Shown: one piece after another, positions 6,810-43,572 of the stretch
Position numbering within the stretch: the stretch's first letter is position 1
How the letters are laid out: each line of letters starts with the position of its first letter
Origin: Chthoniobacteraceae bacterium
GTDB lineage: Bacteria > Verrucomicrobiota > Verrucomicrobiia > Chthoniobacterales > Chthoniobacteraceae
Reading direction: 5' to 3'
DNA length: 43,572 bases
Assembly (NCBI GenBank): GCA_947476045.1
Contig: CANJNZ010000035.1
Span: 1 to 43,572 of the forward strand
Made by a program: the position numbers and the translations under genes
Notes under the pieces: model-generated
What the model was told of the DNA's origin: nothing
Seen by the model: the letters and a program-made list of their open reading frames with translations, nothing else
Database searches by the model: none

Positions 6810-9800
6810 ATGAGCAGCCACATCGATCCACTTATTTTTGAAAAGCTGAAAGCTTTCGCCAATCGGCGGCGCAGCTTGATTATTCTACGCGGAGTGCTGG
6901 CTTCTGTGGGGGTTTTGGTTGCCGCGATGATCGTAGTGGCGGCGATTGACTATTATGTTCCCTTCCTCTCCGAAAGTGTTCGCTGGGTGCTTAGCCTTAT
7001 CGCCTACGGGGCGAGTTTCTGGGTGGCGTGGTGGTATTGCCTGCGCCCACTGCGGCACGCTCCCAATGAACGGCAGATTGCCAGACTCCTAGAACACGCA
7101 GAGCCCAAGCTTCGTGAGGATTTGTTGTCTGCGGTCGAACTTGGGAGCAGCAAAGGCGACGTTTTTGATTCCGAGCAATTCCGCGAATTGTTGCAAAAGG
7201 ACGTTTCCAATCGAATGAAGGGAATCGAGGTGGAGTCGCTGCTTCCTGTTGCGCTGATCAAGCGCTACATCACTTTTGCATTGGTGATCGGCGTAGCCCT
7301 GCTTGCGCTGATGTTGCTGAGTCGCATGAGATTGAGCACCCTGCTGCTGCGTGCTTTTATGCCCGGGGCAAATGTGGAGCGGGTCTCCAACACTCAGATC
7401 ATTGTGTTAGAGCCTACTGCCGGCGATCTGGTGGCCGCACAGGGCGAGGTGGTGAATCTCGTGATTGAACTCCGTGGCGCAGTGGTCGGAACGGCAAATC
7501 TTGAAACGGTTCCCGGAGACGAGCCACGGACCGTGTCCGAGATGAAGTCGGTCGGTAAGAATCGCTTTACCGCGAGCATCAAGGTGGCACACAGCGATGT
7601 GAGATACCGGGTGCAAGCGGGAGACGGTCTCACACGCTACTATAAATTGAAGGCAGCAGCGCGTCCGATTGAAAACGACTTCGAGAAGATTTACCACTAT
7701 CCGTCATACTCGGGTCTGGAGACGAAAACGCTGAAAGAGCAAAACGGCGGGATCAAGGCCTTGGAGGGCACGGAGGTGGAACTGAAAATTACCGTCAATC
7801 AGAAGATCAAGGAAGGCAGTTTGATCATTGATGCTGGAAAAAATAAGACATCGATCCCGCTTTCGCCTCTGCCAGATGGACGTTTGGTTGCGCGTGTTCC
7901 GGTCAAGACTACAGGAACGTATCGCCTGAAACTGATCAGCGCGGAGACTGGTTTCGACAATAAATTCAGCCCTGAATACGAGCTCCGTGCAGAACCGGAC
8001 TTGATTCCAGCGATGGTGCTTTTGGAGCCCGAAAATGATTTGGTGGCGCCTGCAAATGAACTGGTCAAAATCATCGGCACGGCCACAGACGACGTCGGCC
8101 TCGCGAGGGTTTCTCAATTCATCAAGATCAACGAAGGCATCTGGAAGGAAGTCTTGATTCAGAAAAATGCCGGGCGCGACAAGCGGGTCGTGCGTGACTG
8201 GGATATATTTGAAGAGGGCGTGAAAGAGGGGGATCAAATGTTCACCAAGTTGGTGGCCACGGATTTTGCCGGTAACATGACGGAGTCGCGCACCCTACAG
8301 ATTAGCGTGGTTGCGGCTGGTTTTGAAATGAAGCGCCTCTCAGCGATCAGGGATTGCGAGACATTGCTTGCGTCTTTGAGTGCGCTGGTCACAGCCAGTG
8401 AGGCATTGGAAAAACAGGCTGTGGTTACGGGCGCCAAATTTAACGAAGCCGATGGCACGGATACGAAGGAGGCGATGGACGCGTTGACAAAGGCTTATGA
8501 GACCTTTGAAGGAAAACTTTCGGAAGCGTGGATTGCGCTCAATGTTCCACTCCGCGCGGTTCCGTCCAACCACCAGAGCGCCGACTTGGTTGTGATGGGG
8601 CAGATGCTGAGCCAGATCAACAGCGGCGAGGCACCAAAAGTCAGGCGGATTTTGGATTTGCTTGCCACCAAGCCTGCATCGCCTGCTTCGCGCGATTTCA
8701 TGCGGCAGGTTACAGCCAGTGCCGGGACCCTGAAAACACTGTCGCAAATTTCGCAGGAAACCATGCATATGTTTCTTTCCGCCGAGGAGATTGATGCTGC
8801 GGCGGAACTGGGCACGGTCCTTGGCGGGGAGCAGGGTCGTATTGTCGCGAAAGGGAAAACTGCCACCAAGCCGGAGGAATGGGTCAAGTTGGGTGCGCGT
8901 TTCCGCACCGTTATCGGCACGGCCAAGAGCGTCGAAGGCATTCTCGACCGCCTCGCCGCCCGTGGAGCACCGCTGGGTGACACTTCCAGGCGCATCGCCG
9001 ACTCTCTTGTGCATGAGCGGGAAACACTGGAGCCTACTCTTGAAACCACGGCTGCGGACAAAAACCTCCAACCACTGTTTGAGCGATATGATGCCGCGAT
9101 TCGCACACATGCGGTCAGGTCGTTTGATGCCCGGGGCGAAATTTCCGGAAAATTGATCAAGACCCGCCTCAGGCTTCCGGCTGAGCCCACCAAAATGCCA
9201 TCGGGATTGATCGCATTCACGCACCGCGACCTGATTGAGGAACTCGATCCGATTTGGACAAATATTGATCTGCTGAAAAAGGACATTGCCGCCATCGAAA
9301 AAATGGCGTCGCTCAGCGCTGAGGAGAAGGCCGCATTGATGGATTCGATTTGGACTACCCGCGGAGAAGTTTTCAAGACACACGCCGACCTTGAGGAATT
9401 CCGGGCAGCGGCAGATATCGCTTATGTCGGCGACCTTCGCCGAGCCACCGTGGCGTTGCCACTGATGCGTGTGCCGGGTCCGGAAGCAGAGGCGCGGCTT
9501 GAGGAATTGAATCAGAGTCTGCGAATTTTGGCAGGCGGGCACAATTTGCTGGAATTGAACGAGGGGCTCATGGCCATGGCAGGACGGGAACGCTGGGAAC
9601 TGCGTTCCGCGCAAGCGCGCACGAGCGTCACGCGTGACTGGGCGTGGATTGCCACCCGTTTACATCTGGCGCCGGGCGAACTGAAAAAACTGGATATGAA
9701 AGACAAGGAATCGCTCGCGGCTGTGGATTCCGTCGTCGAGTTGATCAAGGAACTCAACACCAGCCCTGTATTCATCAAGGTGTCGTCGGAAATGGCCAAT

Positions 9801-12800
9801 CGCGGGAAACTCGACCGGGCACCGATGGGTGTTCGCTCCGAGATCGAATTGATCGCCGGAAAAATCAGAACGATAATGGCTGTCTTGCGAAAACCCATGG
9901 ATTCCGCCCGTCGGAATCTGATTAAACTGACGCCGAAAATCAGCGAATTGGCTCTCGCTCTGGCCAAGGAAGAGGCTGCGCTCAAAGTGCAGACGACGGC
10001 GCAAACGAACAAAGCATCGCAGGCCACTCTCGATGAAAACAGGACGGTCACCCAGCCTCAGGTCACCCGTCAGCATCAAATCAACGTCAAAATTGATACC
10101 CTCAGGGATCTTATCCGCACGGATGCCAATGAGCAGAACATCCTCAAGAAAGACCAGCGCGAGAGAATGCGCGACGCCAACGGTGTTCTTGCGCTGTTGA
10201 AAGACCCGCCGCCAAGAGCCTTGCAGGCCCTGGTGGATACCACCATCGCGCCTGAAGTTTCGAGGCAGAAAATCGAACTTGATACCGCCGTGGAACAAGA
10301 GGGTAAAATTGTGGATGCGCTCAATTTGATCGCCAAGAACTACGCAGCACTGGAGCAGGGCAAGGTTGATACGCAATCACGTGCTGAATTACGCAACGTG
10401 GAGAAAGAGGAAGGCATCAAAGAAAAAATTGATGCGGATTTCGCAAAGGCCATCGAACTCGAAAAGATGACCAAGCAGAGCGCCAGGGAACTGCTTGCTG
10501 AGTTGGAGGCCAAACTCGCCACCAATCCGGAAATGCGCAAGGAACTCGATAACATTTCCAGAAATGCGCTGAACACCGCGCTGGATAACATTGAAAGCGC
10601 CAAAAAGAACGAAGCCAAAGTCACCGAGAAGGTGAAGGAGGCGGATGCCAAGTCCAAGGACGCCAAACAGAAATTGTCTGCAGTGGAGGCTGCAAGACTG
10701 GCTGCTTCATTGATTAGAGAGGCGAAGACCGCCGCGGACACTGCCAATGCAGCGGTGATCAAGGCGGACAACAAGCCGGCCATGGAAAAGACAAAACTCG
10801 CTGTTGAAAAAGCAGGTCCCGCTGTGACTGCGGTGGATGTCATTGTCGAAGCCGCCGTCCAACTGGAGAGAAGTTCAGTTGTGAAGGATGTCGCCAGGTT
10901 TGCCTCGATGGTGAACGACAAGGCGGAGATATTTATTGCACTGGCAAACGTGTTTAATGGTGAGATTGGCCAGGCAGCGCAAAAAGCAAAGGAAGAAGCG
11001 GACAAGGGCGGAGCGCAAAAAGACACGAACACGCAAGCAAATCAGCAGGCCACCCTCGCCAATCAAAAGGCAACTCAGGCGATCGAAGCCGCCCGACAAG
11101 CACAGGCTGCCGCCAAGGAGGCCGCAGAGCAGGCGGTGGAGAATGCCAAAAACCCCGATAAAGCGCCAAAGAACAGCAAACTGGCAAAAGCCACGCAGGA
11201 GCACCTGCCCGTCGAGGAAAAAGTCAAGGAAGCCGCCGCCGATGTTGATCGTGCAGCGCGGCATGAAAAACGACTCAAGAACAAGGAAGTAGGCGACAAG
11301 CTTGAGAAGTTGGCCGATAAGATCGAAAAAACCGGGGAGGAAGAAGTGGCGGAAGTTGAAAAGAAGCTGAAGGAAGCCAAGAACCCCGATGAAGTTTTAG
11401 CACCACTGGAAAAAGCCGAGAAAAAACTGGCGGAAGATGCCAAGGAATTGAAGGAGGCGACAGAGCTTCCGACTGGTGAAGAACCAGCCGCTGGCGAAAA
11501 GCCAGCGCCGGGCGAGAAGCCAGCAGCAGGCGAGAAGCCGGAAGCGGGTGAGAAACCAGCAGCAGGTGAGAAGCCGGAAGCGGGCGAGAAACCAGCAGCA
11601 GGCGAGAAACCAGCAGCAGGCGAGAAACCCGCAGCAGGCGAGAAACCAGCAGCAGGCGAGAAGCCGGAAGCGGGTGAGAAACCAGCAGCAGGTGAGAAGC
11701 CGGAAGCGGGCGAGAAACCAGCAGCAGGCGAGAAACCAGCAGCAGGCGAGAAACCCGCAGCAGGCGAGAAACCCGCAGCAGGCGAGAAACCCGCAGCAGG
11801 CGAGAAACCCGCAGCGGGTGAGAAACCAGCAGCAGGCGAGAAACCAGCAGCAGGCGAGAAACCAGCAGCAGGCGAGAAACCAGCAGCAGGCGAGAAACCA
11901 GCAGCAGGCGAGAAACCAGCAGCGGGTGAGAAACCAGCAGCAGGCGAGAAACCAGCAGCAGGCGAGAAACCAGCAGCGGGCGAGAAACCAGCAGCAGGCG
12001 AGAAACCAGCAGCCGGAGAAGAACCCGCTGGAGCCACGGAGGCTACGCCCGAAGAGCAAAAGGCTCTCGCTCGGGCGCTCGACGCATTGGATCAACAACT
12101 CAATGAAGAGGCAGAGGCACAAGAGAACAGTCAAAGCGCCGAAGAAGCCGCAGGGGAGGAAATGGCCGCCGCCGAAGAAGCAGCTGCCGCCGAAGCAAAA
12201 TCCGCAGCCGCCGCCGAGGCTCTCGCAAAAGCCGCAAAAGCCGCAAAGGCATCGCCTTCACCTGAGGCTCAGGCCGCACTCGCTGCAGCGGAAGCAGCAG
12301 CCGCCGAAGCCGCCGAAGCCGCCGAAGCCGCCGAAGCCGCCGCGGCAGAGGCTGCGGAAGAAGCCGCCGAAGCCGCCGCCGCTGCTGCTGACGGACCAAA
12401 GCCAGCCCCGGCTCCCGGCAAAAATCTAACCGGCGGTGCACCGCCACCTCCCGGAAGTGAAGCGCCCGGATTGCCCGGCGATCCCAATGGCCCGCCACCG
12501 CCCCCAGGAAGTCAACCACCACCCGGACCTGGCGGAGAAATCCCAGGCGGAATCCCAATTCCGATCCCAGGAGGAGTCCCGGGACCTAACGGCACTCCGC
12601 CGCCTCCAGGCTCCATGGCCGCCATGGCCAAGGCCGCCATGGACCGCATGCGTCAGGAGCGAAATCCAAAGCCTTCGCCGATGAACAGCAAACCGCCGAA
12701 GACCAGCCAGCAGGAGAAATCCATGGGTGGTGCGGGTTCACCGACCGGAGATCCACTGGGCAAGATTCCTGAGCTTGCTACTTTGAAAAAAGGCGACTGG

Positions 12801-12929
12801 GGAACTCTGCCGCCCAAACTAGCCGAAGACCTCACAAAGGCTCAAGGTGAAGCGATTCCTGACGAATACCGTCAGGCGATCGAGATGTATTACCGGGTCA
12901 TCGCAGAAAAATCCAAGAAAGCAAAATAG
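6810..12929 (+). CDS. Giant DUF4175-like membrane protein with (GEKPAA)n repeat
   Basis: 2039 residues. N-terminal membrane segments lie at about 23-46, 57-77 and 152-171. By that topology the remaining roughly 1870 residues are periplasmic. Beta-rich segments (about 190-500) are followed by long helical, coiled-coil-prone stretches (500-1540). Next come about 30 GEKPAA hexapeptides (1556-1735), an Ala/Glu-rich run, a Gly/Pro-rich linker (about 1870-1930) and a conserved-looking end (WGTLPPKLAEDL then IPDEYRQAIEMYYRVIA). The three-TM front and the EYR-AI--YYR tail resemble DUF4175-type proteins. From memory these often lie near MoxR/DUF58/VWA genes in this group, but none is present here. Function unknown; a periplasm-spanning structural or envelope-stress role is inference. 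It is followed after 21 bp by the first peroxidase-fold gene. Confidence 0.85.
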   Translation: MSSHIDPLIFEKLKAFANRRRSLIILRGVLASVGVLVAAMIVVAAIDYYVPFLSESVRWVLSLIAYGASFWVAWWYCLRPLRHAPNERQIARLLEHAEPKLREDLLSAVELGSSKGDVFDSEQFRELLQKDVSNRMKGIEVESLLPVALIKRYITFALVIGVALLALMLLSRMRLSTLLLRAFMPGANVERVSNTQIIVLEPTAGDLVAAQGEVVNLVIELRGAVVGTANLETVPGDEPRTVSEMKSVGKNRFTASIKVAHSDVRYRVQAGDGLTRYYKLKAAARPIENDFEKIYHYPSYSGLETKTLKEQNGGIKALEGTEVELKITVNQKIKEGSLIIDAGKNKTSIPLSPLPDGRLVARVPVKTTGTYRLKLISAETGFDNKFSPEYELRAEPDLIPAMVLLEPENDLVAPANELVKIIGTATDDVGLARVSQFIKINEGIWKEVLIQKNAGRDKRVVRDWDIFEEGVKEGDQMFTKLVATDFAGNMTESRTLQISVVAAGFEMKRLSAIRDCETLLASLSALVTASEALEKQAVVTGAKFNEADGTDTKEAMDALTKAYETFEGKLSEAWIALNVPLRAVPSNHQSADLVVMGQMLSQINSGEAPKVRRILDLLATKPASPASRDFMRQVTASAGTLKTLSQISQETMHMFLSAEEIDAAAELGTVLGGEQGRIVAKGKTATKPEEWVKLGARFRTVIGTAKSVEGILDRLAARGAPLGDTSRRIADSLVHERETLEPTLETTAADKNLQPLFERYDAAIRTHAVRSFDARGEISGKLIKTRLRLPAEPTKMPSGLIAFTHRDLIEELDPIWTNIDLLKKDIAAIEKMASLSAEEKAALMDSIWTTRGEVFKTHADLEEFRAAADIAYVGDLRRATVALPLMRVPGPEAEARLEELNQSLRILAGGHNLLELNEGLMAMAGRERWELRSAQARTSVTRDWAWIATRLHLAPGELKKLDMKDKESLAAVDSVVELIKELNTSPVFIKVSSEMANRGKLDRAPMGVRSEIELIAGKIRTIMAVLRKPMDSARRNLIKLTPKISELALALAKEEAALKVQTTAQTNKASQATLDENRTVTQPQVTRQHQINVKIDTLRDLIRTDANEQNILKKDQRERMRDANGVLALLKDPPPRALQALVDTTIAPEVSRQKIELDTAVEQEGKIVDALNLIAKNYAALEQGKVDTQSRAELRNVEKEEGIKEKIDADFAKAIELEKMTKQSARELLAELEAKLATNPEMRKELDNISRNALNTALDNIESAKKNEAKVTEKVKEADAKSKDAKQKLSAVEAARLAASLIREAKTAADTANAAVIKADNKPAMEKTKLAVEKAGPAVTAVDVIVEAAVQLERSSVVKDVARFASMVNDKAEIFIALANVFNGEIGQAAQKAKEEADKGGAQKDTNTQANQQATLANQKATQAIEAARQAQAAAKEAAEQAVENAKNPDKAPKNSKLAKATQEHLPVEEKVKEAAADVDRAARHEKRLKNKEVGDKLEKLADKIEKTGEEEVAEVEKKLKEAKNPDEVLAPLEKAEKKLAEDAKELKEATELPTGEEPAAGEKPAPGEKPAAGEKPEAGEKPAAGEKPEAGEKPAAGEKPAAGEKPAAGEKPAAGEKPEAGEKPAAGEKPEAGEKPAAGEKPAAGEKPAAGEKPAAGEKPAAGEKPAAGEKPAAGEKPAAGEKPAAGEKPAAGEKPAAGEKPAAGEKPAAGEKPAAGEKPAAGEKPAAGEKPAAGEEPAGATEATPEEQKALARALDALDQQLNEEAEAQENSQSAEEAAGEEMAAAEEAAAAEAKSAAAAEALAKAAKAAKASPSPEAQAALAAAEAAAAEAAEAAEAAEAAAAEAAEEAAEAAAAAADGPKPAPAPGKNLTGGAPPPPGSEAPGLPGDPNGPPPPPGSQPPPGPGGEIPGGIPIPIPGGVPGPNGTPPPPGSMAAMAKAAMDRMRQERNPKPSPMNSKPPKTSQQEKSMGGAGSPTGDPLGKIPELATLKKGDWGTLPPKLAEDLTKAQGEAIPDEYRQAIEMYYRVIAEKSKKAK
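11475..12032 (+). repeat. 18-bp in-frame tandem repeat, 30 units plus a partial unit
   Basis: Thirty consecutive 18-bp units (11475-12014) and a degenerate thirty-first encode GEKPAA, with GEKPEA, GEKPAP and GEEPAA variants. Units differ mostly at silent positions. A 126-bp block of seven units starting at 11532 is repeated identically, silent variants included, at 11658. This is direct evidence of recent segmental duplication within the array. A long open frame on the opposite strand is a by-product of the repeat. Confidence 0.97.
12300..12335 (+). repeat. Four perfect 9-bp GCCGCCGAA units (Ala-Ala-Glu)
   Basis: This short perfect tandem repeat lies inside the giant gene and encodes AAE triplets within a longer Ala/Glu-rich helical tract. 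It is a second candidate slippage site in the same gene. Confidence 0.85.
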
Positions 12930-41930: not shown

Positions 41931-43109
41931 TTACACCGCTTCCCCCGCCGCGTGGCCGCTTGCCCACGCCCATTGGAAATTGTAGCCGCCCAGCCAGCCC
42001 GTCACGTCCACCACTTCGCCGATGAAGAACAGCCCCGGCACGCGGCGCGCCTCCATCGTTTTCGACGAAAGCTCGCCCGTATCCACGCCGCCCAGCGTCA
42101 CCTCCGCCTTCGGATAACCCTCCGTGCCGCTCGCGCGAAACGGCCACGCGCGCAGCAGCCCGAGCACATCGTCAAACTCCCGCTGCTTGTAATGCACCAG
42201 CGTCTTCGCCAGCGCATGACGCCCGCACCAGGCCTCCACAAAACGCCTCGGCATTCGCTCCGCCAGCACCGCGTCGAGCGAGCGCCCCATCGCGCGCGCC
42301 GACACCACCGCCGCCGACGCCCCCGGCTCCGCGAGCAGATCAAAAAACACCGTCTCCCCCTCGCGCCAGTAGCTCGAGATTTGCAACACCGCCGGCCCGC
42401 TCACCCCGCGATGCGTGAACAGCATCGCCTCCGCAAACTCCGCATCACCACATCGCGCCACCACCGGCAGCGACAGCCCGCTCAGCGTATGCAGCGCCGA
42501 GTCCTGCTGCGCAAAAGTGAGCGGCACCAGCCCCGGCCTGAGCTCCGTCACAAGCAGCCCAAACTGCCGCGCCAGCCGGTGCCCGAAATCCGTCGCGCCC
42601 AGCTTGGCAAACGACAGCCCGCCCGTCGCCACCACCAGCGCATCGCACGTCATCGCACCGCGCGTCGTCTCCAGCCGGAACCGCTCCGCCTTTTCCACCC
42701 GCTCCACCCGCACCCCGCAGCGCACCGACACGCCCGCCTCCGCGCACTCCGCCAGCAGCATCGCGATAATCTCCCGCGCACTCCCGTCGCAAAACTGCTG
42801 CCCCAGCGTCTTCTCGTGATACGCAATCCCGTGCCGCTCCACCATCGCCACAAACTCCCACGGCGAATAGCGCGCCAGCGCCGATTTGCAAAACTCCGGG
42901 CGCTCCGAAAGATAATTCGCCGCCGTCGCCCCGAGATTCGTGAAATTGCAACGCCCCCCGCCGCTGATCTCGATCTTTTTCCCCACCCGCTCCCCGTGCT
43001 CCAGCAACGCCACCCGCCGCCCGCGCTGCCCCGCCGTGATCGCACACATCAGCCCCGCCGCCCCGCCGCCGATCACGACTACGTCAAAATGTTCCGCCAA
43101 ATCCTGCAT
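41931..43109 (-). CDS. HI0933-family FAD-dependent oxidoreductase (YhiN-like)
   Basis: 392 residues. The N-terminal Rossmann FAD motif VVVIGGGAAGLMCAITAGQRG (residues 10-30) and KIEISGGGRCNFTN (45-58) are the hallmarks of the HI0933 flavoprotein family. LVVATGGLSFAKLGATDFG and a GVSGPAVLQIS segment follow, and the closing FIGEVVDVTGWLGGYNFQWAWASG is strongly conserved in this group. The family has unclear substrates; some members act in tRNA or thiol-related oxidation. No signal peptide, so cytosolic. It is convergent with the lipoprotein gene; upstream lies the 21-bp repeat array. Family assignment is firm, function open. Confidence 0.92.
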   Translation of the reverse strand: MQDLAEHFDVVVIGGGAAGLMCAITAGQRGRRVALLEHGERVGKKIEISGGGRCNFTNLGATAANYLSERPEFCKSALARYSPWEFVAMVERHGIAYHEKTLGQQFCDGSAREIIAMLLAECAEAGVSVRCGVRVERVEKAERFRLETTRGAMTCDALVVATGGLSFAKLGATDFGHRLARQFGLLVTELRPGLVPLTFAQQDSALHTLSGLSLPVVARCGDAEFAEAMLFTHRGVSGPAVLQISSYWREGETVFFDLLAEPGASAAVVSARAMGRSLDAVLAERMPRRFVEAWCGRHALAKTLVHYKQREFDDVLGLLRAWPFRASGTEGYPKAEVTLGGVDTGELSSKTMEARRVPGLFFIGEVVDVTGWLGGYNFQWAWASGHAAGEAV

Positions 43110-43236
43110 CCGCCGAACCTGCCTTCACGAAGCACAACTCGTCGAGCAGCGAACGCAGCTTCGGCTCCCGGAGCCGCGTTAAAAAACACCCCGCTTCGCC
43201 ACAGGTAGCCGCCATAGGGAGGGCAATGGTTGGGTT

Positions 43237-43404
43237 AGGGAAGCCAATGACGTGATCATTGGAATCAATGACCCAAGTATTGAAGCCAATGACGCGACCA
43301 TTGGAGTCAATGACCCAAGCATTGAAACCAATGACGCAACCATTGGAATCAATGACCCAACCATTAAAGCCAATGACGTGACCATTGGAGTCAATGACGC
43401 GAGT
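43237..43404. repeat. Array of eight 21-bp tandem repeats with CAATG/CATTG dyads
   Basis: Eight head-to-tail 21-bp units (43237-43404) share the core CAATGAC followed by a variable CNNNNN block and an ATTG start of the next unit. Units alternate in two versions, giving a 42-bp super-period. At one type of junction CCAATG and CATTGG form an inverted repeat with a 7-nt centre (for example CCAATGACGCGACCATTGG). The array is bounded on both sides by AGGGAAG. Because 21 is a multiple of 3 the repeat keeps reading frames open on both strands, but no start or family supports a protein. It lies 79 bp before the transposase ATG. Confidence 0.93.
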
Positions 43405-43483
43405 AGGGAAGTCCCTAATTCAATTAGAGCATTTTCTATTTATATTGTCGCAATTTTTGGGAAGGTGTGGCAAAGAGGAGTGA

Positions 43484-43572
43484 ATGAAAAGTTACAGCAA
43501 TGACTTGAGAGAACGCATAGTCACGGCGCGAGCACGCGGCGACAGCGCGGCGGAAGTCGCTCGGCGCTTCGG
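43484..43572 (+). CDS. IS630-family transposase, N-terminal fragment cut by the window edge
   Basis: The frame begins ATG at 43484 (MKSYSNDLRERIVTARARGD ... VARRFG) and is open to the end of the window. The LRERIV, RGDSAAEVARRFG pattern is the helix-turn-helix start of IS630/Tc1-type transposases, which insert at TA. A clear Shine-Dalgarno-like GAGGAG (43475-43480) precedes it, unlike most genes in the window, fitting acquisition by transfer. Terminal inverted repeats cannot be defined from this fragment. Confidence 0.8.
   Translation, partial: MKSYSNDLRERIVTARARGDSAAEVARRF

Follow-up and report, generated by a model that had tools for sequence, protein, structure and literature searches.

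A 21-bp tandem-palindrome array at an insertion-sequence junction in a Chthoniobacteraceae genome, and related phased arrays of its genus

Satellites in the intergenic DNA of bacteria are usually viewed either as families of related sequence or as slippage products whose period is arbitrary. Several described systems combine palindromes, tandem repetition and regular spacing in different ways. REP elements and their BIME clusters are extragenic palindromes, often clustered, sometimes present in two alternating versions, and found beside varied genes; within the Verrucomicrobia, Opitutus terrae is on record as REP-rich (PMC3733652). Iterons and multi-site operators consist of direct repeats of ~21 bp that contain dyads and are helically phased. 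Bacterial minisatellites and satellites are treated in the main text of a survey as intergenic tandem arrays of 10–200-bp units (PMC6749651), and CRISPR arrays place palindromic repeats at regular spacing. Here we describe a 21-bp array from a Chthoniobacteraceae bacterium, together with further 21-bp arrays scattered through related freshwater bacteria, in which spacing and mirror symmetry are kept and the letters differ.

Structure of the array and its junction with an IS630-type element

Nine 21-bp registers occupy positions 43236–43424, close to the end of the window (the whole stretch of 43,572 nucleotides that was analysed). Most of them form a dyad with arms of 5, a loop of 4 and a spacer of 7 bp (CATTG-n4-CAATG-n7), in two alternating versions. 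The array and its surroundings comprise the following features:

41931–43109, minus strand: HI0933-like (BaiN-type) flavoprotein gene, with the array ~127 bp upstream of its start
43236–43256, plus strand: array register 1, an edge unit with a diverged left arm, TAGGG-aagc-CAATG-acgtgat
43257–43403, plus strand: seven 21-bp dyad units, YATTR-n4-CAATG-n7, in two alternating versions with a 42-bp super-period
43404–43424, plus strand: array register 9, TAGGG-aagt-CCCTA-attcaat, a perfect dyad with other arms
43425–43572, plus strand: left end of an IS630/Tc1-like element, TA followed by the inverted repeat GAGCATTTTCTATT (43427–43440)

The sequence-only reading of this DNA had counted eight dyad units; the array it described is real, but its extent had to be corrected to nine registers, reaching 43424. 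TRF returned a period of 42 at 43240–43398 (88% match, 0% indels, score 248) as well as a period of 21 at 43245–43400 (73% match, 0% indels), and the 88% match at period 42 bears out the proposed alternation of two unit versions with a 42-bp super-period. The motif TAGGGAAG, previously taken to flank the array, does stand at both ends (43236 and 43404), but the two copies are 8 × 21 = 168 bp apart, in register with the array units, and are therefore edge units rather than separate flanks. Dyad complementarity in the array extended to 0.93 of arm positions and beat 299 of 300 column permutations (P = 1/300). With a 21-bp unit and 0% indels, the array falls within the ~17–22-bp direct repeats in helical phase that characterise iterons, and likewise within the at least four tandem 10–200-bp units that characterise minisatellites.

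The register that follows 43424 is truncated by the insertion of the IS, whose transposase fragment starts with an ATG at 43484, so that the 79-bp gap noted earlier (43404 to 43484) stands. Being so short, this fragment cannot be assigned to a Pfam family with confidence; the IS630/Tc1 label is given because of weak matches to HTH_38 and to the Sleeping Beauty HTH, combined with a TA target site and inverted repeats. Both the window contig and the contigs of the other IS copies stop inside the element, the assembly being broken at this multi-copy IS.

The last TAGGGAAG lies only ~20 bp from the IS end, as might be expected if the array were part of the IS630-type element, serving as terminal or subterminal transposase sites. 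The other insertion sites speak against this. This IS end recurs on four other contigs, where its flanks are unrelated and the array is absent. The opposite IS end (AATAGAAAATGCTC-TA) lies at the start of contig C93, with GGGCCACCTGAAAATGCCCC next to it, and the joined flanks of the window and C93 (...CAAT-TAGGG-CCACCTGAAAATGCCCC) match, column by column, an uninterrupted locus of sister species G001, L046 (...GAAT-TAGGG-ACGCCCGAAAATGCCCC). This match indicates that the IS jumped into the TA opening the next array register, that is, at a unit boundary, and we infer that C93 represents the other side of the window's own insertion, not of another copy. Judging by these junctions, the IS is a later insertion at the TA of the array edge and the array is independent of it: four other copies of the IS have no array, and in the sister species the unoccupied site shows the array edge but no IS. 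An IS-associated origin was rejected on these grounds, and the suggestion of a transposition-related region finds no support; the probability that the array is a component of the element is very small.

Arrays of period 21 across the genus

The sequence-only reading had also proposed searching for the unit in this and related genomes and recording its neighbours. The unit was found again, but its neighbours differ. A degenerate two-unit pattern gave seven matches in the 4.37-Mb genome, all within the window array, and its reversed control gave zero in the same 4.37 Mb. A sequence model of the unit identified arrays in two of the ten genomes of the genus (two species), with one locus in the window's own genome and three in G001 (L044, L045 and L046). 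Elsewhere among 40 genomes of the bacterial family there was no strong match to this sequence family (two marginal short ones, E about 0.006), and there was none in the 387–388 other genomes sampled from the phylum. Related arrays with related 3′ flanks adjoin different genes: the window array, L044, L045 and L046 belong to one sequence family and each has its own gene neighbourhood, and several of the family's loci have a 3′ flank sequence in common, so that array and adjoining DNA have been copied or moved together. Upstream of the flavoprotein gene in G001, the match ends at about window position 43194, with no array beyond. Within one and the same genome, a common 3′ flank also leads to an array with another 21-bp unit (L049/L061, CAACCGGATGAACAACCGACT). 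Register 9 of the window aligns by position with CATTG-aagc-CAATA-actgaat of the sister species; both arms differ (CATTG..CAATA in G001 vs TAGGG..CCCTA in the window), and complementarity is largely kept, with pairing of 4/5 in G001 (one A–C mismatch) and 5/5 in the window.

Beyond this sequence family, TRF analysis of a 1.7-Mb sample from four species (G000, 836 kb; G001, 105 kb; G002, 600 kb; G004, 185 kb) yielded ~20 arrays outside long genes with a period of 21, 42, 63 or 84, each with its own unit and many with a super-period of 42 or 63 bp. Almost every array of at least 75 bp outside a long ORF in the genus samples had a period that was a multiple of 21, and long arrays of other periods lay almost wholly within long ORFs; looser TRF settings gave many short, indel-rich matches of other periods, which were taken as noise by judgement. 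The genomes are fragmented MAGs, and "intergenic" is used here in the sense of ORF openness rather than of annotation or expression.

The dyads were array-specific, for example CGTTG-n4-CAACG (L086), CGGGG-cctt-CCCCG (L119), TTGTC-n7-GACAA (L168), CAGCCAGA-gat-TCTGGCTG (L109), CAGCCGAG-aat-CTCGGCTG (L165) and AACTGGAG-gg-CTCCAGTT (L124), and several unrelated unit sequences occurred within one genome. Two same-genome pairs were ~87% identical over the array (L065 9067–9777 with L074 18779–19329, and L109 47–281 with L165 3577–3979), indicating that whole arrays were copied between loci. Since several of the tested arrays are homologous, the independent families are fewer than the arrays: about six, plus L166, L168 and L174.

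In a column-permutation test for dyads, 10 of 16 genus arrays were significant at P < 0.05, the dyad and phase choices and the tests themselves having been designed after the pattern was seen. The strongest results came from L086 and L109 (0/300 each), L044 (1/300), L046 and L119 (2/300 each), followed by L065 (4/300), L074 (6/300) and L061 (7/300); the G002 arrays L165, L168 and L174 gave P ≤ 1/200. No significant dyad was found in five sampled 21-bp arrays (L065:9674, L087, L114, L118 and L120), nor in L163 and L171 in a second test. Dyads are therefore not universal, and some of the dyad-less arrays may be coding or decayed.

When the dyad was chosen from the consensus alone, 17 of 18 arrays showed higher conservation in the arm columns than in the remaining columns, most strongly L086 (0.89 vs 0.60, P = 0.001). 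Within L168, L165 and L174 the arms covary (permutation P < 0.0002), part of which is descent where two versions alternate. The covarying arm pairs of L168 include TTGTC/GACAA, GTCTC/GAGAG, TTCTT/TAGAA and TTCTC/GAAAA; its sequence drifts gradually along the array, and successive dyads remain complementary. Most arrays had 0% indels by TRF, and the 21-bp register was kept (0–1% indels) in arrays with as many as 59 (L086) and 58 (L044) departures from consensus. Taken together, arm conservation, covariation and the near-absence of indels argue for something that keeps the dyad and the spacing, not the letters.

Flavoprotein, RlmN, PYNP, LRR, MmeI and DnaJ genes are among the neighbours of the arrays, and no gene neighbour common to them was found among the neighbours scanned. 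An iteron array, or a cluster of regulator-binding sites, dedicated to a single protein or replicon was another early suggestion and would fit the unit length, helical phasing and dyads. However, no Rep, Par or regulator gene adjoined the arrays among the neighbours scanned, the neighbours vary, and a single genome can hold unrelated units. The arrays had no match in plasmid or phage records or in IMG/VR either, and a plasmid, phage or virus origin was rejected for that reason. We therefore set this proposal aside as quite improbable.

Leucine-rich-repeat genes with internal repeats of 69 or 138 bp recur in the genus (L061, L065, L086, L044 and L047) and adjoin several 21-bp arrays or array flanks. 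In the window itself, a 2039-aa ORF (6810–12929) contains about 30 copies of an 18-bp repeat, AACCAGCAGCAGGCGAGA, at 11482–12013, along with smaller repeats, and represents a low-complexity coding repeat.

Coding, RNA and DNA-level readings of the arrays

A unit of 21 bp is a multiple of three, and three of the six frames are open in the window array, as would suit a heptapeptide-coding repeat. Yet L044, L045 and L086 have stops in all six frames, which excludes coding for those arrays and supports the original preference for a phased dyad array over a peptide-coding one. No open frame spans L168 or L174, and the window's sequence family has no common reading frame, the open frames differing among homologous arrays. 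Moreover, the two genuine coding 21-bp repeats inside genes (L113 and L044:10102) had no significant dyad by the permutation test. A coding heptapeptide was rejected for the class because of the stopped frames, and we consider it very improbable for the window array. The class is characterised by an exact 21-bp period, dyads in most arrays, array-specific units and no common reading frame.

Tandem RNA hairpins in 3′ or 5′ untranslated regions, with a role in termination, in mRNA stability or as a protein sponge, would agree with the observation that, for many arrays, each of the two strands gives a better fold than permuted versions do (z about −2 to −9), and with the position of the L061 array, which begins directly after the rlmN stop codon. 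Against this, the contexts differ, with arrays lying between divergent genes (L074) or upstream of starts (window, L046), folding is about equal on both strands in most arrays, and a row of RNA hairpins has no need of an exact 21-bp period. No array matched any Rfam family: a search of the fetched array loci gave nothing at the arrays and two tRNAs elsewhere in the fetched DNA. The RNA reading is thus unlikely in our view. A preference for one RNA strand, considered on the basis of G–T versus A–C mismatches, was dropped because the counts point both ways and are inflated by descent.

The explanation we favour, with a little less than even confidence, is that the window array represents a single member of a genus-wide class of satellites, made of 21-bp tandem palindromes, non-coding and located between genes, whose phased dyads act at the DNA level. 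Such a satellite is probably geometry-conserved and sequence-free, the constraint falling on DNA geometry rather than on particular letters. Set exactly two helical turns from one another, the dyads would present themselves on the same face of the DNA, and could then be bound cooperatively by one or more dimeric proteins or be extruded as a row of small hairpins. The arrays may grow and homogenise via unequal exchange of 21- or 42-bp units, and may now and then reach other loci along with neighbouring repeat DNA. Their likely role would be to organise intergenic DNA locally, at the level of nucleoprotein or supercoiling, along the lines proposed for REP/BIME, rather than regulation of one gene.

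The main alternative, a neutral or selfish satellite, is possible rather than probable, and nearly as likely as phased dyads acting at the DNA level. Palindromes would here promote slippage and template switching, expanding the units and matching the arms, and the 21 bp would come from the mechanism, not from function. Consistent with this, units vary freely in sequence from array to array, the neighbours differ, most relatives are without arrays at the sequence-family level, and drift along L168 is gradual. Template switching in quasi-palindromes, together with slippage, could also yield covarying arms without any function; the perfecting of quasi-palindromes by template switching is on record as a type of mutation (PMC3820800). 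On its own, however, a neutral satellite leaves unexplained the constant 21-bp period across unrelated units, the near-absence of indels, and the greater conservation of arms than of loops between units.

Returning to the DNA-level reading, one exact period and a dyad common to unrelated arrays, with differing letters, point to a ruler, whether a protein array, chromatin or the copying machinery. We suggest, tentatively and with distinctly less confidence, that this is a repeat class defined by geometry, in which arms vary freely yet stay complementary and are kept by a recognition or copying system that works on DNA and tolerates sequence change, in the Verrucomicrobiota and perhaps in other phyla as well. 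The mention of other phyla is based on two Bacteroidales MAGs whose arrays share the period and have nearly identical units (L040 3–249 and L041 4524–4650), for example TTTTG-tatt-CAAAG-aaggaag and CATTG-aagt-CAATG-aaagaat, with a geometry close to that in the window's genus; their likeness in sequence is a product of selection, because the search pattern was made from the window unit, and the independent part is the extension beyond that pattern at the 21-bp period.

Comparison with known repeat systems

CRISPR was ruled out by the lack of unique spacers and by the 21-bp period. The arrays differ from iterons in having no adjacent replication initiator or cognate gene, and in varying in sequence between arrays of the same genome. 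The main text of the satellite survey, which covers 119 bacterial species, reports no common 21-bp rule or dyads (PMC6749651), and the words "hairpin" and "Verrucomicrobi" are absent from that main text. No equivalent 21-bp tandem palindromes were found in the open full-text literature, a scope that mostly excludes subscription papers.

With respect to REP elements, each of the ten genomes of the genus contains Y1_Tnp genes. A GTAG or CGTC tag at the palindrome foot was not consistent, its per-array counts being irregular and zero in several arrays. When the 21-bp arrays were compared with the flanks of ten Y1_Tnp loci, no array matched; the only match was to REP-like DNA beside L044. This REP-like palindromic DNA (about 6550–6710 of L044) also flanks Y1_Tnp (RAYT-type) genes at L179, L180, L183 and L184, all from other species of the genus.

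Unlike REP/BIME, the 21-bp arrays are exactly periodic and head-to-tail, with many array-specific sequences, and in place of a single palindrome family at high copy the window's family has one locus in its own genome and three in the sister genome. Among known kinds of repeat, REP/BIME clusters are the closest to the arrays described here, and iterons and bacterial minisatellites are also near.
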